Part shown: piece after piece, positions 2,479 through 21,737 of the stretch
Position numbering within the stretch: position 1 is the stretch's first letter
How the letters are laid out: every line of letters begins with the position of its first letter
Assembly: GCF_900774055.1 (NCBI RefSeq)
Contig: NZ_CAAGSW010000002.1
Coordinates: 372,001 to 436,000, forward strand
DNA from: Methanococcoides sp. AM1
GTDB lineage: Archaea; Halobacteriota; Methanosarcinia; Methanosarcinales; Methanosarcinaceae
DNA: 64,000 nt
Reading direction: 5' to 3'
The notes under the pieces: model-generated
Database searches by the model: none
The model's input: the letters and a program-made list of their open reading frames with translations, nothing else
Told to the model about the DNA's origin: nothing
Program-made: the position numbers and the translations under genes

Positions 2479-3153
2479 ATGAACATGGTACTTCTCACCG
2501 TTGTGGGGATACTGTTGGCCATTCTTCTATTTGGTGTAAAGACCGGGATCGGTTGTGGTTTTTCGAATCGCAGCACGAAAGAGATCCTTGCTATTGCAGG
2601 CAGCTATTTTATTTTATCAATAATTATCGGCAGCCTCATTGGCTACATAGATCAGTCAAATCTTGACTTGATCGCGAGCATGGGGATGTCTCTTCACGTT
2701 CTGGTTGCATTGCTCCTGATCGGGGCAGGCATCTATACCCAGAAACAGTGGAACTGTGGTTGTGATGTTTCCCATCGCACATTCCTTGTGATCTCCCTGC
2801 CATGCCCTGTCTGCCTGACAGCACTCTTCATCTCCTGTATGCTTCTGGCAACATCTCTTGAGATGGGTGGGCTTTGGATCGGATTGCTTGTAGGTGTTGT
2901 TTTCTTCGTCTCCGTGGTCGCATCTTCTCTTCTTTGCAAGAAGTTGAACAAGACCCCGGAAACCCTTGGTAACGTCATGATGATCCTTGGTATCTACTAT
3001 CTCATGGGCGCCATCATTGTACCTACTTACATTAAAACAAAACAGATGAACATTCCTCCGTATTCCTCACCGCCTGTGGAGATCCTTCCATTTGTGGCCT
3101 TTGCAGTAATTATTGCCGGGGGTTTTGTTCTTGATAAAATTAGGAGTAACTAA
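2479..3153 (+). CDS. DUF2162 polytopic membrane protein (putative transporter)
   Basis: This 224-aa protein has about seven hydrophobic segments, starting with LLTVVGILLAILLFGVK at the N-terminus. It also has a conserved-looking CGC/CPVC cysteine pattern (WNCGCDVSHRTF, LPCPVCLTALF). It matches the DUF2162 family of archaeal predicted transporters, which I know to sit next to MotA/ExbB-like, DUF2149 and CobN-like genes in methanogens. The start ATG is preceded by AAGAGGTG. The gene ends 2 bp before the ExbB-like gene, so it is the first gene of a tight operon. Its cysteines and position suggest metal or tetrapyrrole handling; the substrate is not known. Confidence 0.8.
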   Translation: MNMVLLTVVGILLAILLFGVKTGIGCGFSNRSTKEILAIAGSYFILSIIIGSLIGYIDQSNLDLIASMGMSLHVLVALLLIGAGIYTQKQWNCGCDVSHRTFLVISLPCPVCLTALFISCMLLATSLEMGGLWIGLLVGVVFFVSVVASSLLCKKLNKTPETLGNVMMILGIYYLMGAIIVPTYIKTKQMNIPPYSSPPVEILPFVAFAVIIAGGFVLDKIRSN

Positions 3154-3155
3154 AT

Positions 3156-3779
3156 ATGGCTATTGATTCTTCTTTGTTCCAGATCATGTACACTGCGTCA
3201 GCTGCCATGCTGTATCCGGTGGTAATACTTTTGATCCTGGCAGTTACGGTATCGCTTGGTCTGATCGGTGAGTTCATCTCAGAATATGCAAAACGTCATC
3301 GAAATGTCAAGCAACTTGAGCAGATAGGCAGAAATGTCAAGGAGCATGTTAACAAATCCTCCTATGATGAAGCCGCATCACATCTTCTTAAACTTGACCA
3401 GAACCAGCTTGTTACATCTTTTGCAAACGATGCAGCAGATCATCTGAAAAAGAACACTCTTTCTTCTATAGAATGGTTGTCCGAAGAATATGAAGTTCGA
3501 ATGACAAAACGCCTGGAGCAAACAAAGATACTGTCTACGGTAGCTCCTATGCTCGGATTGATGGGCACTTTAATTCCATTAGGTCCCGCGCTCATCGGTC
3601 TTGCACAGGGTGACATTCTCCAGCTTGCCAACAACCTGATGATCGCCTTTGCCACAACCGTGCTTGGTCTTTTTGCAGGTATCGTGGGTTACGTGCTGAC
3701 GTTGATCAGGAAGAGGTGGTACTGGCAGGATATGGCAGATATCGATTATCTTGTTGATTCTTTGGAGACCGGACAATGA
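3156..3779 (+). CDS. MotA/TolQ/ExbB-like proton channel protein
   Basis: The 207-aa protein has one membrane segment near residues 15-38, a cytoplasmic helical region, and two more segments near residues 125-180. In the second region the TolQ/ExbB signature is visible: LSTVAPMLGLMGTLIPLGPAL followed by LMIAFATTVLGLFAGIVGYVL. The family couples proton flow to mechanical work across the envelope, together with an ExbD/TolR-type partner. That partner is encoded next and overlaps by 4 bp (ATGA). A Shine-Dalgarno AGGAG lies before the ATG. Archaea lack an outer membrane, so the load moved here is presumably the CobN-like surface protein or a substrate bound to it (inference). Confidence 0.88.
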   Translation: MAIDSSLFQIMYTASAAMLYPVVILLILAVTVSLGLIGEFISEYAKRHRNVKQLEQIGRNVKEHVNKSSYDEAASHLLKLDQNQLVTSFANDAADHLKKNTLSSIEWLSEEYEVRMTKRLEQTKILSTVAPMLGLMGTLIPLGPALIGLAQGDILQLANNLMIAFATTVLGLFAGIVGYVLTLIRKRWYWQDMADIDYLVDSLETGQ

Positions 3780-4135
3780 GGAGGAAACGGTATCATCGGC
3801 CAGGCATCCTCTATGAAGAAGAAGACCAGAACCCTCTTACCGGAGTGGCGAATCTCTTCGATGTTGCCATGGTGTTCTCAGTAGCTTTATTGATCGCTCT
3901 TGTGATGTCTTACCAGTTACCTGAACTGCTCAGCCCTACTGAAGATATCACCATCGTAAAGAATCCTGGTCAGGATGATATGAAGATCATAGTCAAGGAA
4001 GGGCAGGACATAGAAGTGCTGAACATGACCGAACAGATCGGTGGTGGTACCGGTGAAGCACTGGGTACGGCTTACCAGCTGGCTGATGGTCGTGTGATCT
4101 ACGTTCCTGATTCGGGGAATGAGACGGAAACCTGA
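3776..4135 (+). CDS. DUF2149 protein, ExbD/TolR-like topology
   Basis: The 119-aa protein has a basic cytoplasmic N-terminus (MRRKRYHRPG), a single membrane segment near residues 27-46 (NLFDVAMVFSVALLIALVMS), and an extracytoplasmic domain ending in LADGRVIYVPDSGNET. The layout, and the ADGRVIYV strand in particular, resembles ExbD/TolR, which partners ExbB/TolQ. DUF2149 proteins are recorded as neighbours of these channels in methanogens. The start overlaps the stop of the channel gene (ATGA), indicating translational coupling. An acidic DVA in the membrane segment could be the proton-path residue, as in ExbD, but this is a reading, not proof. Confidence 0.78.
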   Translation: MRRKRYHRPGILYEEEDQNPLTGVANLFDVAMVFSVALLIALVMSYQLPELLSPTEDITIVKNPGQDDMKIIVKEGQDIEVLNMTEQIGGGTGEALGTAYQLADGRVIYVPDSGNETET

Positions 4136-4204
4136 TCCTTTCAAGAGTGTGTGGAAATAACCAATAGGAAACTAGAATGAAAATGTGTGGATAATGAAAG
4201 TTTG

Positions 4205-4246
4205 AGACATCCCGGAACAGCCGCCAAGCAAAGTGCCGGGATGTCT
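4205..4246. promoter_or_regulatory. Perfect 11-bp inverted repeat just before the CobN-like gene
   Basis: AGACATCCCGG at 4205-4215 and CCGGGATGTCT at 4236-4246 form a perfect stem with a 20-nt loop, ending 22 nt before the chosen CobN start. There is no T-run after it, so it is not an obvious terminator. It could set expression of the giant gene relative to the membrane genes, as an RNA stem or a protein-binding dyad. Confidence 0.5.
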
Positions 4247-4268
4247 TACACATTATCGGGTGGATAAT

Positions 4269-7200
4269 ATGCGAAATATAAGACATCAGTTATTGCTTTT
4301 AAGTGTTTTGATTTTACTGGCGATTTCGCCAGTGGTATCGGCAGAAGAACAGGTTACTAAGATCACTTACATCTCCTATGGTCCGAACGAAGCTTTAGAT
4401 ATGGCAAGTCAGACAAATGATTACAGTGATCTTATTGAGTATACTTTCATTGATTTCTCAGATTCAGGTCTAAGTGCTGATATGGTTGCTGCTGCTGAGA
4501 GTGGTTTCCTTGAAACTCAGGATGTTATTCTCTGTCAGGGTCTCTATGGTATCGTTTTTGAAAATTCAACGGTAAATGAGAGTTTGCAGGCAGCACACGA
4601 TAAGGGTACTGCCCTTTACAGCATAGAACCTATGGGCTATACACCTCCTGCTTACTTCGATTATAATTCCGATGGCAGTACAAATGATCCTGTTGCGAAC
4701 TATTATACCAACATGGACACTTCCGGAGAAGGTCTTGAGAATGCTGAAAACCTTCTTACTTATCTGACACTAAAGTCAAAGATCACTTACATCTCCTATG
4801 GTCCGAACGAAGCTTTAGATATGGCAAGTCAGACAAATGATTACAGTGATCTTATTGAGTATACTTTCATTGATTTCTCAGATTCAGGTCTAAGTGCTGA
4901 TATGGTTGCTGCTGCTGAGAGTGGTTTCCTTGAAACTCAGGATGTTATTCTCTGTCAGGGTCTCTATGGTATCGTTTTTGAAAATTCAACGGTAAATGAG
5001 AGTTTGCAGGCAGCACACGATAAGGGTACTGCCCTTTACAGCATAGAACCTATGGGCTATACACCTCCTGCCTACTTCGATTATAATTCCGATGGCAGTA
5101 CAAATGATCCTGTTGCGAACTATTATACCAACATGGACACTTCCGGAGAAGGTCTTGAGAATGCTGAAAACCTTCTTGTCTACCTTGCAACAGAGTGCCC
5201 AACGCTTTCAAGAATGGCTATCATGGGCAATGAAGTAAACTTCAGTGAATTCGTATTTGTACTTGGTACAGACTTTAACGAGCTTTCTCTAACTAATGCT
5301 TCATTGGATACCAACATCTCATCTCAATTGAACATTACTATTTTCACAAAGGACAATCCTGTACCAGAAGAATTCGATTTCTCTAATTATGGAATGATCT
5401 TCATCGAGTCACAGGATGAGTCCGTGGTAAATAATTGGACATCGAGCATAAAGTCTGCCAAAACAGGCGGTGCAATGGTCATAGGCTATAATCTCTCCTC
5501 CAACATCACCCTGCCAAACGTTGACCTGTACACAACCGAATACACCGATATCGAGAGATACTGGGTGCAGGGTGGCGATGCAAACATGGGGAGCATGCTC
5601 AAATTCATGGGGCAGAATTTCTCCGGTTTATGGGAAGGAGAGGAGATTCCGGAACCTGAATTGCTGCGCCCAAAGATCAATATAACTTACATTATGAATT
5701 ATGGCACCGACAACCATTATCTTCTCAATGTTTTAGGCGAGAGAAGCGTAATCACTGATAGATTCAATGTCACCGTGATGGATGGAGCAGAAGCTGCTGC
5801 AAATCTTACCGATGTTTTAGATCAGGATGTTATCATATTGGGTATGATTGGTGGTGAGGAGTTTCCGGAGTTCAAGGACGCACTTCTTGTGGCCAAGGCT
5901 AATGGCACACAGATCGGGTTAATTGCCACGACCGATATGTACGGTGTCGGTAACATCAACATGACAATTCCACCACACAGTGCAATGGTAGAGTATCATA
6001 ATATTAGTGGATACACGAACATGGAGAACTGGATACGCTGTATCGGTTCAACCCTTGGGAATGCATATATCGAGTATTCCCCTGCCGTTTCTTCGTCAAT
6101 CCCCCTACAAGGTATCTACCACCCTGATGCCTTCCCGAGGATATTTGGGGACAGCACCGAATATCTCGAGTGGTATGCGGATAATGGGTATAATGAGTCC
6201 GCACCCACTATTGGCATCATCACTTATTCTATTGTGGGGGATCCTAAATTTACAGTCACAGATGATGCTGTAATCAGCTACCTTGAGTCCAAAGGGTGCA
6301 ATGTCATCTATACTACCAAGGAGGTATGTACTGGTGATGTGGATTATTTCATCAAAGATGGTGAAGTGCTCGTGGACTCCATCATTTCCCTGAAGGGTTT
6401 CTATCTCAATTATGATGATCATGAAGCGGGTGTGGAATATCTCAAGAGTTACAACGTTCCTGTACTCAAGGGAGCATTAGATGGTTCCAAAACACCCGAT
6501 GAGTACAATGCCAGCGTGCAAGGTTTGGATCTAATTTCCATAGCTTCCCAAGTAGCGCAGCCTGAAATCGACGGATGTATCGATTATATATGGATAGCTG
6601 GTCTGGTCACTGTGGGTGAGGGCTCTGATAAATATGAGTATTACAAGCCGATCATGTCACAGGTTGAATGGCTATGTGACCGTGCAATCGGATGGGCAGA
6701 ACTTGGAAATACCAATAATGCCGACAAGAAGGTCAGTATCATCTACTACAACCACGAAGGCGGTAAGAATAATATCGGTGCCAGTTACCTTGATATCGGG
6801 TCAAGTTTCACATTGATGCTTGAACAGATGCAGGCAGAGGGCTATGATATCGGAAATGGTAGTATTCCAAATGGAAGCGAATTCATCGACCTTTTCATTG
6901 AGAGCAGGAACGTTGGTTCATGGGCACCCGGTGAACTGGAGAAGGTTGTGAACTCCGGTAATGTCACCCTTGTATCAGTGGACGAGTATCTTTCCTGTTA
7001 CAATACCTTGCCAGAATCCGTGCGTGCTGAAGTTGAGGCTACATGGGGTCCGGCACCCGGTGACATCATGGTGTATGAAGGAAATTTTGTGATACCAAAG
7101 GTACAGTTTGGAAATGTCAATTTCATACCCCAACCGACCAGAGCCGGACTATCCGATGAATCACTCATATATCACAACGAGTCAATACCACCTACACATC

Positions 7201-9743
7201 AGTATTTAGCCACATACTTCTGGATCAACAACATTTATGATGCCGATGCACTGATCCACTTCGGTACGCATAGCACACAGGAATGGTTGCCCGGGAAAGA
7301 GGTCGGACTTTGGAGATATGACTATCCGGCTATTATGGTGGCTGACACTCCTGTGATATACCCATACCTGATGGACAATGTGGGTGAGGGTACACAGGCA
7401 AAGCGCAGGGGCAATGCTGTGATCATAGACCACCTGACACCGCCGATAGTGCAAGCAGGTATCTATGCTGAGCTGGCTATGATGCATGATAAGATGCATA
7501 ATTATGAAGATGCCAGGGATGCCAACAATACCGAAATGATGCAGCTTTATCGCAACAGTACCATCGAACTTTACGAAAGCCTCACGATGGAGAACGATCT
7601 TGGCGTAACTCCTGATGAACTCAGGGCAATGACTGAGGATGATTTTGGAACTTTCATTGGAAGCACTGTCCACAACTATCTGCATGAACTACAGGATACG
7701 CTCATGCCTCTTGGTCTCCATACATTCGGAGTTCCCCCTCAGGATTCAAAATTGGTCTGCATGGTCAAATCGATGCTTCGTAGCGATTTCATCGATCATA
7801 TCTACAACGTGATCCCGAAGGATACGGGAGATGAGGAGGATTGGGAAGATAACGCCAGTGTCTATGCAACCGAGCTTTTGAATGCGACGTTGCTCAATGG
7901 TACCAATGTTTCAACTGCCCAGATCGAGATCCTTAGTCTTACGGATGCGAATATCACTGCTGATCTAAACATGGCACTGAATTACTCCGGCCTCTTGAAC
8001 CAGACCACGCGTGAGATCGATCAGACGCTGCGTGCACTCAATGCGGAGTACATCGAGCCCGGGCCTGGAAACGATCCAATACGAAATCCCGAGGCTTTGC
8101 CAACAGGCAGGAATTTCTACAGTTTCGACCAGAGATTGATCCCTGATGCAGAGACCGAGACGATGGGAGCCATTCTTGCGGAACAGATGCTGGAACAGTA
8201 CAAGGCAACACACAACGGTACCTATCCAAACAAGGTGTGCTATGTCCTTTGGGCGACTGAGACAATGCGCCACAAAGGACTCATGGAAGCCCAGATATAT
8301 GCCCTTCTTGGAGTCGATATACACAGAGATACTGGCGGCAGGTTCTCATATTTTACTATAATCGACCAGGAGAACATGACTCATCCAAGGATCGATGTGG
8401 TTATCACACCTTCCGGACTCTATCGTGACACATACCCATTCCAGCTTGAAAAGATGGATGAGGCAATCCGGGAGGTTGCAGATCGCAATGAAACCAATGC
8501 GACAAACTATGTCAGATGGAATTCCCTGAAGATGGAGGATGCACTCATAGCCGCCGGATACAACAACACCACGGCACATGATCTATCCCAATGCAGGATA
8601 TTCACCGAGGCGCCGGGTGCTTACGGTACAGGTCTGCCGGAAGCCACATCCGCAAGTGACACCTGGGATAATGAGTCCGAACTTGCCGACCTTTACCTGT
8701 CACGTATGTCCAACATCTATGGCGCAGACATGTGGGGCGAGAGCTACGAGGATGTGTTCAGGTTGAACCTGATGGATGTGGATGCAGCCATACACAGTGA
8801 CTCGACAAACCTCATTGGAGTCATCGACAATGATGATTTCTTCCAGTACCTCGGAGGACTTGGGCTTGCGGTAAGATCATTGACAGGTGAGAATCCCGAG
8901 ATGTATATTGCAAACTTTGAAAATCCAGACAATCTTGAAATCATCACACTTCAGGAACACTTAAGGAAGGAGATGCGTTCAAGATACCTGAATCCGGCGT
9001 GGATCGAAGGTATGATGGGAGGCGAGTACGCGGGTGCAAGGGAGATGATGAAATTCACCGATAACATGTGGGGCTGGGATGCCATGATGCCAGACCTGAT
9101 CACGGATTCTGACTGGAAGGCGATATACGACATCTATGTTATGGATAAGTACGATCTTGGTCTGGATGAGTTCCTCAAAACCGAAAATCCATATCAATAT
9201 CAGTCCATAACTGCACGGATGATCGAAACCGCACGCAAGGATTACTGGGATGCATCTGACGAGGTTCTCCAGAACCTTGTGAAGGAATACGTTGAATCCG
9301 TGGTCAACGATGGTGTTACATGCTGCCATCACACCTGTGGAAATGCTCTGCTTGATGAGTACGTGCAGGGCATAATGTCAGTACCCGGCGTTGTCGACCA
9401 GGCAACCATCGATGAGTACAATAAGCTGATGCAGGAAGCCACACATCGTTATCCTGAAACCAGTGGCCCCAGTAGGAGCAGTTCGGACACACCTTCTGCA
9501 AACATAGTCAATAGCACAAGCACAAGCAATGATGCTACGGGTTATGGAACTGCTACCGATCAGCCAACAGATGCTTCACAGCAAAGCACACCAGACAACT
9601 ACGTTGAAGGTTATGAAATGACTCGTGAAAATACTCCGAAAGAGTCAGCTTCATCGTCCTTCTCAGGCTCTGATGTAATGGGGGCATTATTAGTCCTGGC
9701 ATCTGTGGGAATGATCTACTTTGGTTTCATGAGAAAGAAGTGA
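4269..9743 (+). CDS. cobN: Extracytoplasmic membrane-anchored CobN/BchH-like chelatase-family protein (1824 aa)
   Basis: I choose the ATG at 4269 because it opens a clean signal peptide (MRNIRHQLLLLSVLILLAIS, cleavage near VSA-EE); upstream GTG starts would bury it. Residues 31-163 and 171-303 are a nearly identical duplicated domain. More CobN/BchH N-terminal repeats follow to about residue 600. Large-subunit chelatase signatures include LIHFGTHSTQEWLPGKEVGL (about 995), GNAVIIDHLTPPIVQAGIY, IFTEAPGAYGTGLPE, and MWGWDAMMPDLI near the end with a CCHHTCGNALL cluster. After a Ser/Thr-rich linker comes one C-terminal membrane helix and RKK. Cytoplasmic CobN inserts cobalt into the corrin ring; this one is outside the membrane where ATP is absent, so binding, capture or remodelling of cobalamin/tetrapyrrole is more likely than ATP-driven chelation. 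It is the last gene of the DUF2162/ExbB/DUF2149 operon. Confidence 0.88.
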   Translation: MRNIRHQLLLLSVLILLAISPVVSAEEQVTKITYISYGPNEALDMASQTNDYSDLIEYTFIDFSDSGLSADMVAAAESGFLETQDVILCQGLYGIVFENSTVNESLQAAHDKGTALYSIEPMGYTPPAYFDYNSDGSTNDPVANYYTNMDTSGEGLENAENLLTYLTLKSKITYISYGPNEALDMASQTNDYSDLIEYTFIDFSDSGLSADMVAAAESGFLETQDVILCQGLYGIVFENSTVNESLQAAHDKGTALYSIEPMGYTPPAYFDYNSDGSTNDPVANYYTNMDTSGEGLENAENLLVYLATECPTLSRMAIMGNEVNFSEFVFVLGTDFNELSLTNASLDTNISSQLNITIFTKDNPVPEEFDFSNYGMIFIESQDESVVNNWTSSIKSAKTGGAMVIGYNLSSNITLPNVDLYTTEYTDIERYWVQGGDANMGSMLKFMGQNFSGLWEGEEIPEPELLRPKINITYIMNYGTDNHYLLNVLGERSVITDRFNVTVMDGAEAAANLTDVLDQDVIILGMIGGEEFPEFKDALLVAKANGTQIGLIATTDMYGVGNINMTIPPHSAMVEYHNISGYTNMENWIRCIGSTLGNAYIEYSPAVSSSIPLQGIYHPDAFPRIFGDSTEYLEWYADNGYNESAPTIGIITYSIVGDPKFTVTDDAVISYLESKGCNVIYTTKEVCTGDVDYFIKDGEVLVDSIISLKGFYLNYDDHEAGVEYLKSYNVPVLKGALDGSKTPDEYNASVQGLDLISIASQVAQPEIDGCIDYIWIAGLVTVGEGSDKYEYYKPIMSQVEWLCDRAIGWAELGNTNNADKKVSIIYYNHEGGKNNIGASYLDIGSSFTLMLEQMQAEGYDIGNGSIPNGSEFIDLFIESRNVGSWAPGELEKVVNSGNVTLVSVDEYLSCYNTLPESVRAEVEATWGPAPGDIMVYEGNFVIPKVQFGNVNFIPQPTRAGLSDESLIYHNESIPPTHQYLATYFWINNIYDADALIHFGTHSTQEWLPGKEVGLWRYDYPAIMVADTPVIYPYLMDNVGEGTQAKRRGNAVIIDHLTPPIVQAGIYAELAMMHDKMHNYEDARDANNTEMMQLYRNSTIELYESLTMENDLGVTPDELRAMTEDDFGTFIGSTVHNYLHELQDTLMPLGLHTFGVPPQDSKLVCMVKSMLRSDFIDHIYNVIPKDTGDEEDWEDNASVYATELLNATLLNGTNVSTAQIEILSLTDANITADLNMALNYSGLLNQTTREIDQTLRALNAEYIEPGPGNDPIRNPEALPTGRNFYSFDQRLIPDAETETMGAILAEQMLEQYKATHNGTYPNKVCYVLWATETMRHKGLMEAQIYALLGVDIHRDTGGRFSYFTIIDQENMTHPRIDVVITPSGLYRDTYPFQLEKMDEAIREVADRNETNATNYVRWNSLKMEDALIAAGYNNTTAHDLSQCRIFTEAPGAYGTGLPEATSASDTWDNESELADLYLSRMSNIYGADMWGESYEDVFRLNLMDVDAAIHSDSTNLIGVIDNDDFFQYLGGLGLAVRSLTGENPEMYIANFENPDNLEIITLQEHLRKEMRSRYLNPAWIEGMMGGEYAGAREMMKFTDNMWGWDAMMPDLITDSDWKAIYDIYVMDKYDLGLDEFLKTENPYQYQSITARMIETARKDYWDASDEVLQNLVKEYVESVVNDGVTCCHHTCGNALLDEYVQGIMSVPGVVDQATIDEYNKLMQEATHRYPETSGPSRSSSDTPSANIVNSTSTSNDATGYGTATDQPTDASQQSTPDNYVEGYEMTRENTPKESASSSFSGSDVMGALLVLASVGMIYFGFMRKK
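4359..5177 (+). repeat. Tandem 399-bp in-frame duplication inside the CobN-like gene
   Basis: Bases 4359-4757 and 4779-5177 are direct repeats offset by exactly 420 bp (140 codons). Reading base by base I find one difference, a silent C/T in the motif PPAYF. The 21-bp joint between copies is unique. The copies encode residues 31-163 and 171-303. Such identity at silent sites means very recent duplication or active gene conversion. Confidence 0.97.
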
Positions 9744-9815: not shown

Positions 9816-9956
9816 TTTTTTATTGTTTCTGTTATTCCTGGATTATCATCGGGTATATCATCACGTTAAACAATTACAATTAAAAATAATTAAAGTTTGT
9901 TTTATTACGAATGAGTTTTTACTACACCTTTACCTGATCTTCTGGTGTTGATCAAA

Positions 9957-11117
9957 ATGATAACGGATCCAATTTGTAAAGCTCATGTAACTGAGAACAG
10001 TAATTATGTTACGAATTATGGCGGGAAGAAGTACTACTTTTGTTCTGCGGAATGCAAGAATAAGTTCGATCAACTGGAAAAGAGTGTAATACGCTTGAAG
10101 CGCAATATTGGTGAGCGCGAAAGGATCTCTTTTGGTAAGCTGAAAAAAGAGATCATAAATCTTGGGATCTGCACTTTGTGCGGTGCCTGTGTCTCTTCCT
10201 GTGAGTCTATAGCATTTGTGGGTAAGCAGCCTAAACTGATCGACAAATGTACTGCCTGCGGTGTCTGCTATAACCAGTGCCCGAGAACAGTTACAAGGGA
10301 AGAGGATCTTGTGGGAAAACTCAGGTTCGGATATGCTGCCAGATCTTCAATTTCCGGGTTTAAGGGCCAGGATGGTGGTGTTGTCACCTCCCTTCTTGCA
10401 TACGGGCTTGAGGAAGGCCTGCTGGATTGTGCCATAGTCACAAGGAGGTCGGACGATGATCCCTGGAAAGCTGAGCCTTTTATTGCAACTACTGCGGATG
10501 AACTCTTTGAGTCTGCCGGGAGTATCTATTCCCACAGCATGACCATGGAGCCTCTGATGAGTGCTATCAAGCAGGGTATGAGGAGCATTGCATTTGTCGG
10601 ACCGAGTTGTAATATCGATGCTGTCCACAAGATGCAGACAAGCCCCCACGGCTTTCTTCATCTCTTCCTGAGGGCAAAGGTCCTGAAGTTCGGTCTTTTT
10701 TGCATGGACAGCTTCGAGCACGAAGGTATCAAAGAATTTGTAGAAACACATGGAATGGACCTTAATGATATTGATTCAATGAAGATCCGTAAGGGTGTCT
10801 TCGAATTTGGCATGGCTGATGGTATAAAGAGCTATGATCTCTCAGAACTTGACCAGTACAGGTCTACCTCCTGCAAGTTCTGTACCGATATGGCTGCTGA
10901 GAACTCCGATATATCCTTCGGAGGCGTGGGAACACCGCAGGGCTGGAGCACTGTCCTGGCACGCTCATCTATAGGATAGGAGATACTCTGTGAAGCTATC
11001 GACAATGGCTACATCGAGGCAAGGCGTCTTGAGAAGAAGGAAATGGATCGTGCAGTAAATCTTGCAAAGATGAAGAAGGTACAGATGTATTCCCTGAATC
11101 GCAGGCAGAAAGCCTGA
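9957..11117 (+). CDS. YHS-domain/ferredoxin/FrhB-like F420 oxidoreductase subunit with in-frame UAG
   Basis: From ATG 9957 (GTG 9945 is also possible) the protein begins with a YHS/TRASH-like metal domain: DPIC, then GGKKYYFCSAECKNKF. Two 4Fe-4S motifs follow (CTLCGACVSSCES, CTACGVCYNQCPR), then the FrhB N- and C-terminal domains of F420-reducing hydrogenase/dehydrogenase beta subunits (KGQDGGVVTSLLAYGLEEG, FVGPSCNIDAVHKMQ, CKFCTDMAAENSDISFGGVG). At 10977-10979 an in-frame TAG interrupts the C-terminus. Translation stays open for 45 more codons to TGA at 11117 and reads as the usual family ending: after SSIG comes EILCEAIDNGYIEARRLEKK. I therefore annotate through the TAG, as pyrrolysine or other readthrough. 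Likely role: electron transfer between F420H2 and an iron-sulfur partner; the partner is unknown. Confidence 0.8.
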
Positions 11118-11240: not shown

Positions 11241-12437
11241 GTGATGACTCGCGACGTAGATGATGTTCATAGTACCCACAGTGGTTTGATTCGTGCAATG
11301 GAGAGGCTCCGGAGCGCAGACATCAGCCAGGGTAACAAGGATATACTTGAGAACTTTGTGACTGCCTGTAGGTTGGAAGGCCTGGCAAAGAACACAGTGA
11401 TCTGGTATGCTAACTACGGTACCAGGATGGCTCAACGGCTCCAGGATATAGGCTTCACAGGGACGATTGACCAAGTGGATCAGGCCATCTTCCACAGGCT
11501 GTTGTTGTACCTTGAGGACGAGCGCGGGATGTCACAGAGCAGCCTGAGGAATTACAAGAAGCTAGTTAAGAAGTTCTTTGGCTGGTCCTGTGATGGCGAG
11601 GCCCCAAAATGGGTGCAAAACATCAAACTCAAGACGATAGATACCCCTGTTCAGCCATCTGATCTGCTTACCCAGGAAGAGTTTGACCAACTCATGGGAG
11701 CATGCAAACATCCACGTGACAAGGCCTTAATTGCTGTTCTGGCTGACTCAGGCATGCGTGTGGGGGCTCTGGCATCTTGCCGTATCAAACACGCTGAATT
11801 CAATCAGTATGGAGCCATTCTGTACATCTCACAGACATCACTGAGCAAGAAGACAACTGCAGCCAAGGGGATCCCACTGACCTGGTCAACAGGATATCTC
11901 AATCAGTGGCTGTCTGTACATCCTCTTAGGGAAGATCCGGACGCTCCTCTATGGGTTACCCTCAACCAGAACATGGAACCATTGAGCTATAAGAGTGTAA
12001 GGAGCACGATTGCAAAGATAGGAGAACGGGCTGGTCTCAAGAAGCGAGTAAATCCCCATACCTTCAGACATCTTGCTATCACCAACTGGATCCTTGACGG
12101 CCTTAACGAACAGGAGATCAAGCATAGGGCTGGCTGGTCTCGTGGATCCACACAGATGTTTAAGATCTACGCGAACTTCACAGACAATGAGATCAACGAA
12201 AGGATTTTTGAGAAATATGGGCTCAAGAGTGACGATAAGAGACATGTGACACTCAAGGCCTGTCCACGCTGTAACAATGTTCTGAGACCTTCAGACAAGT
12301 TCTGCAGCCAGTGTTCACTTGTCTTGGACCGTGAATCGCTTGACAAGATCCAGGCATACGAGGAGAAGATTCCTGAACTGCTTCAGTTGGTGTTGAAGAG
12401 TGATCGTGGAAGGGATTTGATAAAGCATCTTTCCTGA
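11241..12437 (+). CDS. Tyrosine recombinase/integrase with C-terminal zinc ribbon
   Basis: The 398-aa protein (GTG at 11241, or ATG at 11244) has a SAM-like core-binding N-terminal domain at about residues 35-125. The phage-integrase catalytic domain follows, with the catalytic residues visible: Arg in SGMRVGAL, the HxxR box in NPHTFRHLAI, the third His/Trp position in HRAGWSRGS, and the Tyr nucleophile in FKIYANFT. A four-cysteine ribbon is added after the catalytic domain (ACPRCNNVL, FCSQCSLVL), a feature of archaeal integrases. It lies immediately inside the tRNA-Ala fragment and is the obvious candidate for integrating and excising the element. Confidence 0.93.
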   Translation: MMTRDVDDVHSTHSGLIRAMERLRSADISQGNKDILENFVTACRLEGLAKNTVIWYANYGTRMAQRLQDIGFTGTIDQVDQAIFHRLLLYLEDERGMSQSSLRNYKKLVKKFFGWSCDGEAPKWVQNIKLKTIDTPVQPSDLLTQEEFDQLMGACKHPRDKALIAVLADSGMRVGALASCRIKHAEFNQYGAILYISQTSLSKKTTAAKGIPLTWSTGYLNQWLSVHPLREDPDAPLWVTLNQNMEPLSYKSVRSTIAKIGERAGLKKRVNPHTFRHLAITNWILDGLNEQEIKHRAGWSRGSTQMFKIYANFTDNEINERIFEKYGLKSDDKRHVTLKACPRCNNVLRPSDKFCSQCSLVLDRESLDKIQAYEEKIPELLQLVLKSDRGRDLIKHLS

Positions 12438-12692
12438 AATATCTCTGACCTAGTTAATCAGCTTGGTCTTTGGGAGATCTGGGCTGACTTCTGAATTTTT
12501 AGCGACATATGTTTAGCTTACGCTTGACTATGTGATCTTATAAGTTGTTATAAGATACAATTAATTAATTATAAATACTATTAATTCCTTATATTAGATT
12601 AGCTTCTAGTCATAAATATAAGACCAGAAAACAAAAGATAAAACAACAAAGGATAAAACAACATAGGAACAAAACACAAGGAGTTGACAAAA

Positions 12693-12887
12693 ATGACTAC
12701 AGAGGCAACTACTATCCCCACAACAAAGACAATTCGGGACAGGCTGAAAGGCTATGGTCAGAAAGGGGAGACCTATAGCGATATTCTTACACACATGATG
12801 GATTCAATCGATAAAGAAGAGTTTATGGATAGGATGTACAGACGCTTGGAAGAAAAAGATCAGTTTGTCTCACTTGATAAAGTTTGA
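12693..12887 (+). CDS. RelB/VapB-like antitoxin
   Basis: The 64-aa protein is read from ATG 12693, which has AAGGAG at 12678-12683; a TTG at 12684 is less likely. It has a short N-terminal strand (TIPTTKTIRDRLKGYG) followed by helices (ETYSDILTHMMDSI), the pattern of archaeal ribbon-helix-helix antitoxins. The RelE-like toxin gene starts 13 bp downstream. As in other such pairs it probably represses its own promoter and neutralises the toxin. An AAAACAA-rich leader precedes it (12625-12680). Confidence 0.78.
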   Translation: MTTEATTIPTTKTIRDRLKGYGQKGETYSDILTHMMDSIDKEEFMDRMYRRLEEKDQFVSLDKV

Positions 12888-12900
12888 GACGTGATTCAAA

Positions 12901-13185
12901 GTGAAATGTAATGTGAACATACATGCAGATGTGGTAAAGTTTCTGAACGCACTCGATCCTGGAACAAAAGAAAGGATCGTTGACGGGTTGAAAGTCCTTG
13001 GCAATTTGCCTGTTGATGGTGATGTCAAGAAGTTGAAAGGTACAAAGGGTAGGAAGGACCTATATCGCTTGCGTATAGGCGAATACCGAGCTATCTATGA
13101 AGTTGAAGATGATAATGTGTATGTTCTGGAAGTTATGCTTCGTGGAAAGGGTTACGGGTGGCTTGATCGGCTGCTCGTCCTCTAA
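12901..13185 (+). CDS. RelE/ParE-family toxin
   Basis: The 94-aa protein starts at GTG 12901. The RelE fold pattern is clear: DVVKFLNALDPGTKERIVDGL (helical pair), then VKKLKGTKGRKDLYRLRIGEYRAIYEVEDDNVYVLEVMLRGKGY (beta-sheet with the basic strand Y-R-L-R-I-G-E-Y-R). Members of the family cleave mRNA on the ribosome or poison gyrase. The upstream antitoxin gene and the mobile-element setting support an addiction module. Its length is typical of the family. Confidence 0.88.
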   Translation: MKCNVNIHADVVKFLNALDPGTKERIVDGLKVLGNLPVDGDVKKLKGTKGRKDLYRLRIGEYRAIYEVEDDNVYVLEVMLRGKGYGWLDRLLVL

Positions 13186-13308
13186 CTATTTTTGAATGTA
13201 GGATTAAACACTTTCCACTTTCTCGATTTTCTTATTTTCTATAGATTTTTCTAAGATTTCTTTACTTTTATATATCAGATAATTACCATAGGAATCTACG
13301 GTGATGTT

Positions 13309-13905
13309 ATGAAAACTGGAAGAAATGATCCATGTCCATGTGGTAGCGGCAAGAAATACAAAAAATGCTGCATTAGTAAGGAAAACTCCCAGCCAAGGAT
13401 AAAAAATGCCTCCATCTCGAAGAACATTCCTGGGTTATGGGTTGATGATCTCTCTCTGAAAAAGAATTATTACAACTCAATAGATGAGCTCTACGATGAG
13501 ATAAGAGCTACAGGAAGGGTTCCACATGGAGATGAATATACATATGGTGATGAAGAAACAGGGCTGACCCGCACAATTGAAGTAGAGGAATTGTGCAGAC
13601 ATGGCCACCCCAGTGGAGGCAGTGTCACCTTTGATCAAACAGATGATGGAGGATGGGAAGGGGTAGAAAGTGGTTCCGGAGGTGGAGGTCCCTGTGTCCT
13701 ATGTGAAATCCTAAAAGAAGGATTTGAAATTGGTTGCCCTGAATGTGGAAAACCATTTCCAGAGTTCACTGAAGGCGAGATTTTAGAAATATATACAAAA
13801 GGCATTGAACCCCTCGGCATTACATGCCCCAACTGTGGATGCAAATTTATCGCAATTGACGAAAATGGCATCCGCATAAGTGAACCTAACAATGTTAAAG
13901 AATAA
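13309..13905 (+). CDS. SEC-C motif protein with zinc ribbons (198 aa)
   Basis: The start MKTGRNDPCPCGSGKKYKKCC is a textbook SEC-C metal-binding motif. The middle (residues 60-130) contains a Gly-rich stretch around GSGGGGPCVLCEI. Two CxxC pairs follow (IGCPECGKPFP and ITCPNCGCKF), probably zinc ribbons. No catalytic domain is recognisable. SEC-C proteins are found with SecA and many unrelated proteins, often as zinc-dependent adaptor domains, and are frequent in defence and mobile regions. It stands alone here, 123 bp after the toxin gene. Confidence 0.75.
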   Translation: MKTGRNDPCPCGSGKKYKKCCISKENSQPRIKNASISKNIPGLWVDDLSLKKNYYNSIDELYDEIRATGRVPHGDEYTYGDEETGLTRTIEVEELCRHGHPSGGSVTFDQTDDGGWEGVESGSGGGGPCVLCEILKEGFEIGCPECGKPFPEFTEGEILEIYTKGIEPLGITCPNCGCKFIAIDENGIRISEPNNVKE

Positions 13906-13950
13906 TTTACTCCCCCATTGTTGATTGTTTTATTTTATAGGCTGAGGATT

Positions 13951-14050
13951 GACACAGAACGTCCTCAGAACATTTTTACACACCAGCCGTTGATGGGTGT
14001 CTTGCACGATTTGAAGCATCTGGGGTGAGTCTCAGCCCATGAAGAGCAGA
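13951..14050 (-). pseudogene. Remnant copy A of a small Cys-rich gene end
   Basis: This region shares a perfect 24-bp stretch (13999-14022) and looser flanking similarity with 16723-16815. On the minus strand both encode a short tail around HPRCFKSCKT (copy A) or HLRCFKSCKT (copy B). No start or full-length gene is present, so I read it as a decayed paralogue. Confidence 0.5.
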
Positions 14051-14084
14051 CCGAAAGGCTGACATGCAGTAGGCCATCACGTCG

Positions 14085-14288
14085 ATGGTAAAAAGGAAAG
14101 TTAAAATAATTCAAAGACTATCTTTGTGCAATTATACGGGATGTGGGATATTGAACCATGAAGAGATCTATTCGAGAATTGAGGAACGGCTGCCGAATGA
14201 GAATGCATTTGAGAGTGCTGTACTGAGGAACGTACAGGATAACTATTTCATTCTGGTTTATCAATCGCTATACAATCAAATTCAGTAG
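14085..14288 (+). CDS. Hypothetical 67-aa protein, end possibly cut by the insertion sequence
   Basis: ATG at 14085; the product begins MVKRKVKIIQRLSLCNYT and has no family that I recognise. Its stop is a TAG at 14286-14288, directly at the left end of the insertion sequence, so the original C-terminus may have been lost when the element inserted. No good ribosome-binding site is visible. It could be spurious. Confidence 0.35.
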   Translation: MVKRKVKIIQRLSLCNYTGCGILNHEEIYSRIEERLPNENAFESAVLRNVQDNYFILVYQSLYNQIQ

Positions 14289-15524
14289 TTCTCTAATTTT
14301 TGCTTAACCCCATAAATCAACATCAAACGGCACATTTATATACGGTTAAAAAATCCCTTCCATGTTACCTCGACTAGAACTAACTCCAACTCACTGCATC
14401 AAAACTGTTTTACAGCCTCTTCTCGACAATATCCATATTCCAATCAATGGTTCTCTCAATTGCAAAGATCTATTTGCCAGTATTCTTGGCATGGCAACAT
14501 GGAATCGTTCAATTCATTCAATTCATAAACAGTATCATAAGATTCCTTGTGAAACATCAATGAGATACCATTTACAAAAAATCGAGTTGGATCAACTCAT
14601 TGAACACAATACAAAAATACTCTTACAATCATCACTTAAAACTCTCAAACAAAAGAAAAAGCATGACTTTGCTATTGATTATACGAATGATCCATACTAT
14701 GGAGGCATAGATGATAGCAATAATCGATATGTGATTAGAGGTCAAGCCAAAAAATCAACGAACTCATTCTATTCTTACATATCACTTTGCATTATTGACA
14801 AAGATGAAAGGGTTACAATTTCTGTGCTTCCTGTGAAAAAAGGAAACTCCAAGACAGATTATCTCAAATATTTCATAGACCAGATAAAACAGATTAAACT
14901 CAAGATCAATGTTCTTTGTTTGGACAGAGAATTCTATTCAAGAGAGGTTTTTTCTTTTTTACAGGAAAATGAGGTTGCACATATTGTTCCTGTTGTTAAA
15001 ATGGGAAAAAGGTTGAAAAATATTCTTGATGGAACAAAAAAGCGTTATGACACATATACGATGAATAGCACAAAAGGAAAAGTGGAGCTTGACATTGCTA
15101 TTGATGTCAAATACAGAAAAGGGAAGCGAGGAAAGAATGGGTGTGAGAACCTTGGATTTGTTGTTTATGGGATTAATTGGGATCCAAGAAAAGTCAGTGA
15201 CACTTACAGGAAAAGGTTTGCTATTGAATCGTCTTATAGGATGCGAAATGTGGTAAAACCTAAAACGTGTTCTAAAGACCCTATGTTACGATATTTTTAT
15301 GCGTTGATATCGTTTCTTTTCAAAAATGCATGGGTGTCAATACAGAGAATGCATTTCATGAAAGTGAAAAGAGGACCAAAGACGATTGAATCTGATATGT
15401 TTAGGTTTGATATGTTTGTTCATTTAATTGTGGAATGGGTGAGAAGAAAGTTGAAAGTTAGGTTAACTGTTAAGTGTTTTAGGTGAATGTGGAAATATTA
15501 TATGAGGGAATGAATATTAGTGAA
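14289..15524 (+). mobile_element. ISH3-like insertion sequence
   Basis: Imperfect terminal inverted repeats begin TTCTCTAATTTTT (14289) and, read from the right end, TTCACTAATATTC (ends 15524). They bracket one transposase gene, giving 1236 bp. Flanks GTAG (left) and GTAC (right) could be a target duplication with one change. The boundaries are my reading and may be off by a few bases. Confidence 0.6.
14362..15486 (+). CDS. DDE transposase, ISH3-like
   Basis: The 374-aa protein has an N-terminal helical DNA-binding part (residues 1-95) and a DDE-type core: HDFAIDYTNDPYYGG supplies the first Asp, INVLCLDREFYSREVFSFL the second, and RKRFAIESSYRMRN the Glu. The D-x-x-x-x-PYYG pattern and the overall length fit archaeal ISH3 transposases, although I cannot exclude a related archaeal family. 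The reading frame is intact, with an AT-rich leader and a TATA-like run at 14333-14342. It probably inserted recently, because the gene to its right is truncated. Confidence 0.85.
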   Translation: MLPRLELTPTHCIKTVLQPLLDNIHIPINGSLNCKDLFASILGMATWNRSIHSIHKQYHKIPCETSMRYHLQKIELDQLIEHNTKILLQSSLKTLKQKKKHDFAIDYTNDPYYGGIDDSNNRYVIRGQAKKSTNSFYSYISLCIIDKDERVTISVLPVKKGNSKTDYLKYFIDQIKQIKLKINVLCLDREFYSREVFSFLQENEVAHIVPVVKMGKRLKNILDGTKKRYDTYTMNSTKGKVELDIAIDVKYRKGKRGKNGCENLGFVVYGINWDPRKVSDTYRKRFAIESSYRMRNVVKPKTCSKDPMLRYFYALISFLFKNAWVSIQRMHFMKVKRGPKTIESDMFRFDMFVHLIVEWVRRKLKVRLTVKCFR

Positions 15525-16045
15525 GTACTGAAATTAGTTACAAGGATCTTCCTGACAACAAATTCACTACTGACGATTTTAAGTCATTCATTAGGAAAAA
15601 CAATTTTGTAGACTTTGTGAATGAGATTTACAGGACCAGGTTATCTTCAAAAGGCGTGAAAAACATTAAGGATCTGGTGCAACAAGTTGACAATTTCGAT
15701 GACTATGAAAAAGTATTGATGGCCTTTGAAGAAAGCGATCGGCGCAATTACAAAGGCAATGAAATAAAACCGAGTCCATGGAGCTTCGGAACAAAGTTGT
15801 TGCATTTCTATAATCCACAAGAAAATCCTATCCTAGATACGATTGTTAGAAATAATCTAAAACTAGGTTACATGGATGATCAATTATGTGTTGAGTTCAG
15901 GAAAGCAGCCAATTGTTTCGTAAATAAACACATTGGTTATTTTGAAAACATTGCTAAGTCGGAAACCATTAAAAAAGAATTAGAAGAGCGCTACATACCA
16001 ACACCGTTCTCAAAAATGGGATTGCTTGACATGGCACTATATTGA
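15524..16045 (+). pseudogene. Truncated hypothetical gene to the right of the insertion sequence
   Basis: The frame is open from the insertion-sequence edge (15524) to TGA at 16045, but no ATG occurs near its beginning; a GTG at 15617 is the first start. The peptide upstream of that GTG (SYKDLPDNKFTTDDFKSFIR) reads like real protein, so the gene probably lost its 5' end to the insertion. The C-terminal half has a PWSFGTKLLHFYNP motif, reminiscent of the S-F-x-x-K-x-x-H-F-x-N-P signature seen in uncharacterised proteins of accessory regions. Function is unknown. Confidence 0.55.
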
Positions 16046-16132
16046 AAATGGTGGGGGTGAACTTGTGGGCCCCTTTCCGTTGGGGGGGTGTGAAGCAAGA
16101 ATCGACAACATTAGATGCTGGATTGGGACAAT

Positions 16133-16366
16133 TCAGAGTTTCAGCCCGCCCCCATGACACTTATATTTCGTAGGTGTCACGCCAGGCTTCTCGGCAAGCA
16201 TTGCCTGATGCTTCTCCTGGCATTCCTTGCAACAATAAGGGAGCATGATAATCCCATATCTCTTGAAATAGTCAACAAATAACTTCTTCTTCTGCTCCGG
16301 AGGCATTTCCACGATATTGTTGCAGTCGGGATTACTGCAGCTGCACTGTACGAGATCAGCAGTCAA
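16133..16366 (-). CDS. Small Cys-rich protein, putative zinc binding (77 aa)
   Basis: It starts at TTG 16366 and ends at TGA 16133. Cysteine pairs CSCSNPDC and YCCKECQEKH resemble treble-clef or short zinc-finger knuckles around a helical MPPEQKKKLFVDYFKRYG segment. The start lies inside the 3' end of the upstream small ORF (16356-16553), so the two may be translationally coupled. I do not recognise a family. Confidence 0.5.
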   Translation of the reverse strand: MTADLVQCSCSNPDCNNIVEMPPEQKKKLFVDYFKRYGIIMLPYCCKECQEKHQAMLAEKPGVTPTKYKCHGGGLKL

Positions 16367-16553
16367 TTTGTACCACCCCGTTCACACATGCTTCCGGGTA
16401 GAGTTCACTGACTTCCATACCCTGATCTCCAATGCTGCAGCAGACATTGGTCACGTGGATCAGAAAAGGCAATCTTCGAGCTTCACAGGTAGGGAAATCA
16501 GAACATTTGTTTGTGCAGATTACTCCGTAATCAGACTTTGTGCATAACATCAT
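16356..16553 (-). CDS. Hypothetical Cys-rich 65-aa protein
   Basis: It starts at ATG 16553 or 16550 and overlaps the next gene by 11 bases. It contains eight cysteines (CTKSDYGVICTNKCSDFPTC at the start, VCC in the middle). No SD sequence is visible before the ATG. It could be a small metal-binding protein or chance; the overlap with the following Cys-rich gene is the main support. Confidence 0.35.
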   Translation of the reverse strand: MMLCTKSDYGVICTNKCSDFPTCEARRLPFLIHVTNVCCSIGDQGMEVSELYPEACVNGVVQIDC

Positions 16554-16585
16554 TATGATATGCGCTCTTTTTCATATATACCATT

Positions 16586-16735
16586 TTATCTACGTGTAAT
16601 TAAGTACGTGGATCTTGATTCATCAGTATACTTCTCAATCATATTAGCCGTGTAGATCTTCTGGACGACACCGTATTCCACGGAATCGAGAGTAACCTGG
16701 TCACCGACTTCCAGAGTGCCACAGAACGCGCTCAA
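16586..16735 (-). CDS. Small beta-rich hypothetical protein (49 aa)
   Basis: This minus-strand frame runs from TTG 16735 to TAA 16586. Its product has a compact beta pattern, SAFCGTLEVGDQVTLDSVEYG, then VVQKIYTANMIEKYTDE. It looks like real coding sequence, perhaps an OB- or SH3-like strand set, but the start region abuts a repeated block (16723-16815), so its N-terminus may be altered. No SD is visible. Confidence 0.35.
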   Translation of the reverse strand: MSAFCGTLEVGDQVTLDSVEYGVVQKIYTANMIEKYTDESRSTYLITRR

Positions 16736-16815
16736 GACAATTTTTACACATCAGCCTTATGTTTGTATGTCTTGCACGATTTGAAGCATCTGAGATGATT
16801 TTTAGCCTTTCTGGC
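16723..16815 (-). repeat. Copy B of the small-gene-end repeat
   Basis: It matches 13951-14050: a perfect 24-bp core at 16769-16792 (core GTCTTGCACGATTTGAAGCA...), plus TTTTTACACA[T/C]CAGCC at 16741-16756 and further patches. On the minus strand the core encodes HLRCFKSCKT. The repeat therefore probably marks the shared ends of two decayed paralogous genes, not an independent repeat element. Confidence 0.6.
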
Positions 16816-16996
16816 TGATAGGTTCAAACCGAATCCCGTGGTCACCCTTGTACGGCTTGTGATGATCTACATCTCCCTAGATTATATCATCATGAATCCC
16901 TTCCGGATATGCATCACATTTCCAGCCCAGGACTCCATGGTGTAAATGCTTACATTCGATGCATAATGGTGCTTGGCCTATCAGGGAATATACACT
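16802..16996 (-). pseudogene. Decayed small phage-type gene with internal TAG
   Basis: The minus-strand frame contains CIECKHLHHGVLGWKCDAYP, then EGIHDDII, a TAG at 16877-16879, then GDVDHHKPYKGDHGIRFEP. The G-x-x-D-H-x-x-P-Y-x-G-D-x-G-I-R-F-E signature is a known small-protein pattern in phages and mobile elements. No ATG, GTG or TTG lies between the preceding stop (16997-16999) and the conserved region. A frameshift seems to separate it from the HLRCFKSCKT tail. I treat it as a remnant; the TAG is not good evidence for recoding here. Confidence 0.55.
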
Positions 16997-17077
16997 TTAG
17001 TATATGCTTTGTTCAAGTACTCATAAAATAAGAAGCTATCAGGACAGTTGTTTTGATGTACACATTAGCCCCTTGCA

Positions 17078-19096: not shown

Positions 19097-19098
19097 TA

Positions 19099-19578
19099 TC
19101 AGATTCCTCCGTTGAGTAAAACATTGACATCTTTTTCATTTATGTATGGTTTTATGCTTCTTAAAAAGTCCTTTTCTGTTGTAAAACAGTCATGAAGGGT
19201 TTCTATCTTATTTGCAAATTGTTTCCCTTTAGGAGTTAACCTTATCCCAGTAGAGTTCCCATATTCCATCACCACCAGCCCATGTCCTTTCGCAAAATCG
19301 ATGGCCCTGCTTATTCCGGGCTCAATTCGGATAACAATGTCATGCAGTGGTTTTTTTTCAATAAAATATCCATGTAAGATTTCACGGTTTTCGGGTGATC
19401 TAATAGCCCAATTTATTACATTTACTTTTTTTAGACTTGCTTTTTTGCCTCTGCTATAATCAAGAATTAACACCAAAACAGTAACTCTCCAATCTGGTCG
19501 AAGATCGGGTGGAATTGGTCTGGGCCGTCGAGTAAAGCTGAAGGGGATGTTTATTTGTGGGATGTCGGCTTCTCTCAT
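19099..19578 (-). CDS. Winged-helix middle component of the ABC-3C operon
   Basis: The 159-aa protein begins with a Pro-rich segment (FTRRPRPIPPDLRPDWR). A helix (VTVLVLILDYSRGKKASLKKVNVINWAIRS) is followed by a winged-helix-like region ending in FAKGHGLVVMEYGNSTGIRLTPKGKQFANKI. Small winged-helix 'middle components' link the ATPase to the effector in ABC-3C systems. Its ATG overlaps the effector's stop by 4 bp (ATGA), and the ATPase gene starts 2 bp after its stop, so the three proteins are made together. Assignment rests on fold pattern and gene order, not on a database match. Confidence 0.7.
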   Translation of the reverse strand: MREADIPQINIPFSFTRRPRPIPPDLRPDWRVTVLVLILDYSRGKKASLKKVNVINWAIRSPENREILHGYFIEKKPLHDIVIRIEPGISRAIDFAKGHGLVVMEYGNSTGIRLTPKGKQFANKIETLHDCFTTEKDFLRSIKPYINEKDVNVLLNGGI

Positions 19579-20507: not shown

Positions 20508-20687
20508 AGAAAACTACCTCTTTTTAACACGGTTTGTTTTATTTTTTGTTCGCTTGTCCCGGTTTCTTTCCAATGTTCGATATGCAGTAAAGTTATTCAT
20601 ACTATTAAATTTTACAAAAATTTAATTGATGATCTCCTCTACTACGATGGGATCTTTGTTAGATGAACAAAGTGATTCATTTCGTAG

Positions 20688-21044
20688 TTATGCTGTTCTT
20701 TTTTCCACGAAGTACAAATGTTGTCTGTCCGGGCAATACATGTCAAGATCTATTTTCATTCTCTGTATTAAATCGCAGCAGTACTTTGATGCGACCCCGA
20801 AATACTTCTTCAGAAGTTTGCAGAATTCATCGGTGGTCATGCCATTGTAGACATACCCTTCTAGTTCCAGGAGGATATCCCTGGCCAACTGCTCCTCAGA
20901 TATTGTCTCAGTGATGGTCACTTCATCCAATGTATGTACGTACTCGTAAGTGGATCCTTTTCTGTATAGATCTTCAGTTACATGCAATCGGATATTTTGA
21001 TAGTCGGTCTGACCACATTTTGAGCATTTTGTTTTTACATACAT
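20688..21044 (-). CDS. Hypothetical 118-aa protein with N-terminal zinc knuckle, paralogue of 21893-22177
   Basis: I choose ATG 21044 (MYVKTKCSKCGQTDYQNI), preceded by GGGGGCGG. The N-terminus has a CxxC pair. The C-terminal half (EEQLARDILLELEGYVYNGM, then CKLLKKYFGVASKYCCDLI) resembles the C-terminal half of the protein at 21893-22177: a helix, a two-residue turn, then LLK-x-x-F-G and a final LI-x-R. I infer that the two are paralogues within the element. Function unknown. Confidence 0.6.
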   Translation of the reverse strand: MYVKTKCSKCGQTDYQNIRLHVTEDLYRKGSTYEYVHTLDEVTITETISEEQLARDILLELEGYVYNGMTTDEFCKLLKKYFGVASKYCCDLIQRMKIDLDMYCPDRQHLYFVEKRTA

Positions 21045-21068
21045 TTCCGCGCCCCCACGCTGCAATGG

Positions 21069-21353: not shown

Positions 21354-21441
21354 ATCTCTTCGTGTATAACATATGTATAAACAAAAGATATAAATACGTG
21401 GTATGACAATGATTATACAATAGCTATACGGAGCATACCCA

Positions 21442-21609: not shown

Positions 21610-21737
21610 GATGATACATTAAAGGGATCCCCAGGGCGAACCCCAGAAACCCACAGTAATGACTCGCAATCATATCTACGGTTTCTGGCCTTATAAATGT
21701 TCGTTCCTCCGGGATCTGCCCTATGGAGGAAACAGAA

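Follow-up and report, generated by a model that had tools for sequence, protein, structure and literature searches.

An archaeal T-U-V-S operon with an exported CobN-like chelatase, an ExbB/ExbD-like motor pair and a structured RNA leader, related to the HmuSTUV/BtuS module

The window considered here is a stretch of 64,000 nucleotides from Methanococcoides sp. AM1 (contig NZ_CAAGSW010000002.1, positions 372,001 to 436,000), near the start of which genes for a DUF2162 membrane protein, a MotA/TolQ/ExbB-type channel subunit, a DUF2149 protein and a giant exported CobN-like protein form an operon; the names T, U, V and S are assigned to them here after the hmu operon of Bacteroidota, of whose HmuSTUV/BtuS module they appear to be an archaeal branch. 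Open reading frame positions and Pfam matches confirm the four genes where a first-pass annotation had placed them (2479-9743):

2479-3153, + strand: T, DUF2162 membrane protein with about seven predicted helices (Pfam PF09930, E 2e-67)
3156-3779, + strand: U, MotA/TolQ/ExbB-type channel subunit, HmuU homologue (Pfam MotA_ExbB, E 8e-11)
3776-4135, + strand: V, DUF2149 protein, ExbD-like single-helix partner, HmuV homologue (PF09919, E 4e-36)
4269-9743, + strand: S, exported, membrane-anchored chelatase of the CobN/HmuS type (PF02514, CobN-Mg_chel, 1117 bits)

The U and V genes overlap by 4 bases, and the order T-U-V-S recurs in most sampled archaeal loci; therefore, the arrangement is not due to chance. 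The S frame opens at a GTG (4233) and contains an in-frame ATG downstream (4269), which is almost certainly the true start because a conserved RNA leader, described below, ends at that ATG; in other copies the leader likewise ends at an in-frame ATG, at or inside the called S frame. Among 294 genomes of the phylum, DUF2149 is present in 92, DUF2162 above the cut-off in 80 and CobN in 176, and M. acetivorans, used as a control genome, holds all three families. DUF2162 never occurs without V (80/80 DUF2162 genomes carry DUF2149), and a DNA pattern for the CCHHTC motif of S matches 74 genomes, the reversed control pattern matching 0; V is present in 72 of these 74 (Fisher 3e-47), the two exceptions being draft genomes. 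Genomes of one family share ancestry and such p-values consequently overstate independence; moreover, the neighbourhoods were mostly picked around DUF2149, and the genome-level association is the only one free of that selection. In some genomes the S genes form tandem arrays; in one of them (G152:C1:3855572-3881032; L079, L143), five consecutive S genes follow T-U-V and a sixth is located elsewhere, the copies varying in their active-site signatures and one sampled copy being without the catalytic His.

The S protein is characterized by the following features:

4287-4343, + strand: hydrophobic segment of the signal peptide, residues about 19-37 (hydropathy windows up to 2.33 at residues 19-20)
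7257-7271, + strand: HFGTH active-site motif, equivalent of HmuS His-538 (S alignment and motif comparison)
8826-8858, + strand: DNDDFFQYLGG, domain-V signature of CobN type, the HmuS counterpart being LDHVYEFMGG (S alignment and motif comparison)
9321-9338, + strand: CCHHTC motif near the membrane anchor (motif comparison)
9675-9731, + strand: C-terminal membrane anchor, residues about 1815-1833 (hydropathy)

The CCHHTC motif is typical of most exported archaeal S proteins and absent from HmuS and cytosolic CobN. The signal peptide and the C-terminal membrane helix that had been announced for the CobN-like protein are both present by hydropathy, and its extracytoplasmic location is further supported by 41 N-glycosylation sequons, a 2.3-fold excess over the 17.8 expected from the shuffled sequence. 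Cytosolic archaeal CobNs contain 0-4 sequons versus about 5 expected, and one Bacteroidota HmuS (L013) contains few, as is to be expected in a bacterium. On the basis of signal peptide, anchor and sequon excess, S is predicted to reside outside the cell.

The same three signals contradict the reading of S as an ordinary cytosolic cobaltochelatase of cobalamin synthesis, which membership of PF02514 and the presence in the genome of a ChlI/ChlD-like pair would favor and which we consider scarcely credible. In fact, S reaches 572 bits against the CobN equivalog TIGR02257, under the curated cut-off of 822; the genome possesses a chelatase of the CbiX family for the early insertion of cobalt; and its only other CobN-family gene (L002/L004) also encodes a protein with sequon excess and a C-terminal helix. 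The ChlI/ChlD-like pair (L162:7424-10161, G000:C1 about 218.4-221.2 kb) is found in a genome without cytosolic CobN, near an ATP-pyrophosphatase gene resembling LarE; an archaeal MCM is also present in this genome. The first-pass statement that ATPase partners are absent holds within the window but fails for the genome, and the absence of AAA+ ATPases (ATPases associated with diverse cellular activities) from the whole genome was dropped as a claim when the pair was found.

The best match of S in the PDB is HmuS of B. thetaiotaomicron (9d26, E 1.5e-142), ahead of the CobN of M. tuberculosis; this HmuS, also named BtuS, is a solved and biochemically studied heme de-chelatase (PMC12583661). A FastTree phylogeny was built from 88 sequences of S and CobN, with the archaeal cytosolic CobNs as root and neither ChlH nor bacterial CobN among them; in it, HmuS, the exported archaeal S proteins and the U/V-linked S of family f9 group in one clade apart from the sampled cytosolic CobNs (support 0.98-1.00). 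The partners were compared with those of 24 Bacteroidota loci: U of the window shares 36% identity with HmuU (E 4e-37; profile comparison probability 100%) and V shares 49% identity with HmuV (E 4e-36; profile comparison probability 99.9%). Judged by their sequences, the archaeal S, U and V proteins are homologous to HmuS, HmuU and HmuV of Bacteroidota, and the function can no longer be called undescribed, as it had been at first. The products of hmuYRSTUV have been listed as including CobN-like, hypothetical, MotA/TolQ/ExbB and DUF2149 proteins (PMC10434189), and an exported BtuS class, the third class of CobN-related proteins, was proposed by Rodionov 2003, as cited in PMC6460266; BtuS has been detected in the proteome of Methanosarcina barkeri (PMC10846266).

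Invariant channel threonines and a membrane aspartate are expected of an ExbB/ExbD-like motor. Both are present here: the ExbB-like pore threonines of U (Thr138/Thr168) are invariant in 80/80 homologues, and the ExbD-like aspartate of V (Asp29), located where the membrane helix begins (NLFD-AM), is likewise kept in every homologue (69/69). These residues support the earlier proposal of an ion-driven pair of the ExbB kind in an organism devoid of an outer membrane. The designation of V as ExbD-like is appropriate for the aspartate but not as a family label, since V belongs to DUF2149 and gave no match to the ExbD Pfam family even at E<=10, the other matches being weak and unrelated; its AlphaFold model (pLDDT, the predicted local distance difference test, of 53) is too poor for a comparison with the ExbD fold.

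Cytosolic class I chelatases require an ATP-driven AAA+ partner (PMC7689651). No such partner (ChlI/CobS type) adjoins S in the window neighbourhood, as judged from its open reading frame list and Pfam, and ChlI-type AAA+ genes, scored by tblastn, adjoin 6/8 cytosolic CobN loci and no exported S locus; in the family of L130, S has no signal peptide, and U/V and ChlI both accompany it. Because there is no ATP outside the cell, U/V would take the place of the AAA+ motor for S, and the tight pairing of U/V with S, combined with the lack of an outer membrane, suggests that U/V act on S. HmuU and HmuV have been drawn as an ExbBD-like pair powering the TonB-dependent receptor HmuR (PMC12583661) and assigned to inner-membrane transport (PMC13227078); that archaea have this pair alongside the same class of enzyme argues that it powers the exported chelatase and not a receptor. 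The archaeal data speak for a U/V motor acting in the service of S, in which a TonB receptor would have no part.

The equivalents of the catalytic residues His538, Glu577 and His506 of HmuS are conserved in the window S (which reads HFGTHS, its relatives HFGTHG), and none of the window-type S proteins departs from the catalytic residues of the superfamily (34/34). The conservation of the catalytic His and Glu of the superfamily makes (de)metallation more likely than mere binding, so that the surface capture first ascribed to S says too little. A non-catalytic S would be a surface receptor for corrinoids or metal complexes, with U/V driving conformational release and T or BtuCD importing the intact ligand. 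In favor of this role, FecCD (BtuC-type) genes adjoin the module in L124 and L136, and the catalytic His is lost in some S paralogues (FTIF/FSIF type), so binding-only versions of S may exist; the intact residues of all window-type proteins render this role unlikely for the window S.

At the position of HmuS His-1209 the window S has Asp and at that of the conserved Glu-1212 it has Gln, both as in CobN; the HmuS signature LSLDHxxEFMGG with His-1209 is accordingly not matched (DNDDFFQYLGG). The aligned columns of the HmuS heme ligands Met-79 and His-254 hold Ile and Gly, and the Met-rich insertion of domain IV is missing (57 residues with 0 Met versus 215 residues with 20 Met in HmuS). These differences, and the fact that heme genes were not seen adjoining the window S, oppose a heme de-chelatase like HmuS, which would strip iron from environmental or recycled heme with entry of Fe(II) via FeoB. 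Nevertheless, HmuS is the closest characterised homologue (PMC12583661), BtuS of M. barkeri is up with Fe(II)/cysteine and FeS2 versus Fe(II)/sulfide (PMC10846266), and the second S of the same genome (L004) carries the HmuS-type signature FDHTYEFFGG, so that one organism seems to hold both S types; heme is a possible substrate of the window S, though rather an improbable one. The second S gene is adjoined by genes of the CODH/ACS type (carbon monoxide dehydrogenase/acetyl-CoA synthase). Together with the archaeal MCM, the window proteins bearing CXXCH motifs and the occurrence of all three families in M. acetivorans, these genes suggest that the host is a cytochrome-containing methanogen of the Methanosarcinaceae.

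The gene neighbours point to cobalt. In families f7 and f17, which we infer to be ANME-1-like (related to anaerobic methanotrophic archaea) and whose S proteins are mostly window-type, genes for CbiM, CbiQ, CbiD, a corrin methylase or FecCD-type proteins are located within 10 kb of 9/10 S loci and of 0/10 motor loci without S (p 1e-4), lending support to the link with cobalt or corrinoids that had been suspected initially. The CbiM/CbiQ families include nickel transporters, and the host is apparently a methanogen with a high demand for nickel and coenzyme F430, as would suit an external S working on native tetrapyrroles, be it by recovering the nickel of F430 or by acting on others; the corrin methylase and CbiD neighbours of the relatives indicate instead a corrinoid, and no F430 genes were recognised adjoining S, which makes this role very unlikely. 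Salvage of cobalt or a corrinoid is favoured over heme for the window S, with a probability that approaches one half.

T contains an invariant C26 and an invariant PCPxC (window 2800-2814) across 18 homologues. Its single-sequence AlphaFold model is poor (pLDDT 50), and no credible PDB or Pfam match was obtained for T as a CcdA-like protein or one of another solved fold. No homology to HmuT is detectable (profile comparison probability 1.8%), for which reason T as an HmuT homologue was rejected, and a search of 11 Bacteroidota genomes for DUF2162 gave no match. The cysteines would fit both the passage of metal and an outward transfer of electrons; the in vivo electron donor of HmuS was left open in PMC13227078.

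A further element of the operon is located between V and S:

4194-4271, + strand: structured RNA leader of 78 nt, ending at the S start codon (covariance)

The leader has a 12-bp stem (4204-4215 with 4236-4247), a loop GCCGCCAAGCAA with the conserved form GCC-NN-CAAGCAA-like, and a Shine-Dalgarno sequence and the ATG at its 3' end. The covariance model recovers 30 copies at E<=1e-4 in the selected loci; the 30 copies checked for the downstream gene comprise 29 of these (L169 left out) and one at 14605 of L108 (E 0.004). Twenty-eight of the 30 are placed at the start of an S gene, each tandem S copy included, and the remaining two (L082 5676 and L108 14605) precede apparent S remnants: judged by eye, one shows a signal peptide and a stop, and one is a 119-aa protein whose ends resemble those of S. 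In the stem, 11/12 pairs have changed on both sides with the pairing kept; the double-change cells amount to 67, compared with 21.4 after shuffling and no more than 13 in the slid controls, counts inflated by an alignment fitted to the covariance model, and in an unfitted 10-sequence alignment 4 pairs have already changed on both sides. The leader is present in 22/40 genomes of the family (Methanosarcinaceae-like), in 10/14 genera, and was found neither in the sampled loci beyond that family nor in the sampled Methanosarcina-like and ANME-like ones; a weak match in L092 on the strand opposite to S (E 0.13) and a chance-like match in L141 were not counted. It has no match among 4227 Rfam families. 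Its position at the ribosome site and ATG of S argues for a control of translation. Upstream of T there is another long leader (about 2330-2478) with a TATA-like box TTTATATA and blocks TTTGGGTGGTAGAAATGTTG conserved within the genus; known riboswitches were matched at neither the S nor the T leader.

Homology, location signals, co-occurrence, active-site residues and RNA covariation are the basis of the explanation that we consider best, in which T-U-V-S would be the archaeal branch of the HmuSTUV/BtuS module, U/V the motor for an external S, and a cobalt tetrapyrrole the favoured substrate; as a whole, it stands at about an even chance. S would be an enzyme of the class I chelatase fold, anchored in the membrane and facing outside, and U/V an ExbB/ExbD-like motor driven by an ion gradient, replacing the ATP-driven AAA+ proteins (ChlI/D, CobS/T) of the cytosolic class I chelatases. 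Most likely S removes the metal from an external tetrapyrrole, which for the window S would be a cobalt tetrapyrrole in corrinoid salvage rather than heme; the freed metal may enter by a separate transporter, e.g., CbiMNQO, or through T, T may pass the product inward or carry reducing equivalents outward to S, and the structured leader would control the translation of S. A bolder version, i.e., an ion-gradient-driven chelatase in which U/V have replaced the AAA+ proteins, acting as a CobN-type external cobalt-tetrapyrrole de-chelatase and with translation set by a new RNA that perhaps senses cobalt or corrinoid, is tentative and rather doubtful.

Several points weigh against the salvage of cobalt by a motor-driven S. 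Most of the loci behind the ChlI and co-location counts were picked around V; in some genomes (L093, L110, L114, L123, L128, L129) U/V, sometimes with T, have as neighbours large exported proteins different from S, which means that the motor is not tied to S alone and may serve several surface machines. The cobalt/corrinoid neighbours were seen in the ANME-1-like lineages only, none occurring around the window or in its family, and it is chemically difficult to take the cobalt out of a finished corrin. The sole tested relatives, the HmuS proteins, act on heme, and the levels of BtuS in M. barkeri respond to the iron/sulfur source (PMC10846266). Recombinant HmuS turned ferroheme over to protoporphyrin IX without HmuU/V in vitro (PMC12583661), where the motor is thus no strict requirement; its part may lie in opening, in loading or in the release of product.

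The BtuS class of exported CobN-like proteins and the hmu operon of Bacteroidota are already known, and the archaeal role has been stated to be unclear, with complete hmu operons missing in archaea (PMC12583661). In a literature search, with most subscription journals outside its reach, neither the archaeal T-U-V-S operon as such nor the motor swap, the CobN-type subtype, the cobalt neighbourhood and the RNA leader were found described. The module bears on the energy source of a class I chelatase outside the cell and on the question of why so many archaea possess "CobN" genes when the late cobalamin pathway is otherwise missing from them; if the explanation is true, methylotrophic methanogens and ANME could mine cobalt from environmental tetrapyrroles, and the RNA leader provides a ready genetic handle for finding the signal.

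The head region of S contains an exact repeat:

4359-4651 and 4779-5071, + strand: the two copies of a 293-nt in-frame tandem repeat, offset 420 (sequence self-comparison)

The second S gene (L004) also holds an exact repeat, in which 1-127 is repeated at offset 309; such repeats would be due either to recent duplication or to an assembly effect. Directly downstream of S (9945-10979) there is a gene for an FrhB/FdhB-type F420 protein fused to a YHS domain, kept near S in most relatives of the genus (L097, L099-L102). Tyrosine recombinase-like, transposase-like and primase/helicase-like genes, assigned by eye, follow at 11241-25396 and suggest an integrated element, and two exported CXXCH proteins (29411-30688, with several motifs, and 34129-34686, with one) are probable c-type cytochromes.

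In comparison with known systems, the archaeal module shares with HmuSTUV of Bacteroidota the homologous U and V, their gene overlap, and an exported, anchored S of CobN fold with the catalytic His and Glu. In contrast, the order is T-U-V-S and not S-T-U-V, T is a DUF2162 protein unrelated by sequence to HmuT, and there is neither HmuY/HmuR beside the module nor an outer membrane; the window S has a CobN-type domain V and is devoid of the heme site and the Met-rich insertion, and the CCHHTC motif and RNA leader are on the archaeal side. The BtuS family is alike in comprising exported, membrane-anchored CobN-like proteins proposed for metalloporphyrin salvage; a full operon has not been reported for M. 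barkeri in earlier work, whereas here T, U and V accompany S in most of its archaeal carriers. The ExbB-ExbD-TonB system has the channel threonines and the membrane aspartate in common with U/V and differs in that V belongs to another Pfam family and that the archaeal host presumably lacks an outer membrane on which TonB could act. Finally, the class I chelatases CobNST and ChlHID share the large-subunit fold and the CobN-type active-site signature with S, which differs from them in being outside the cell, with U/V replacing the adjoining AAA+ partner.

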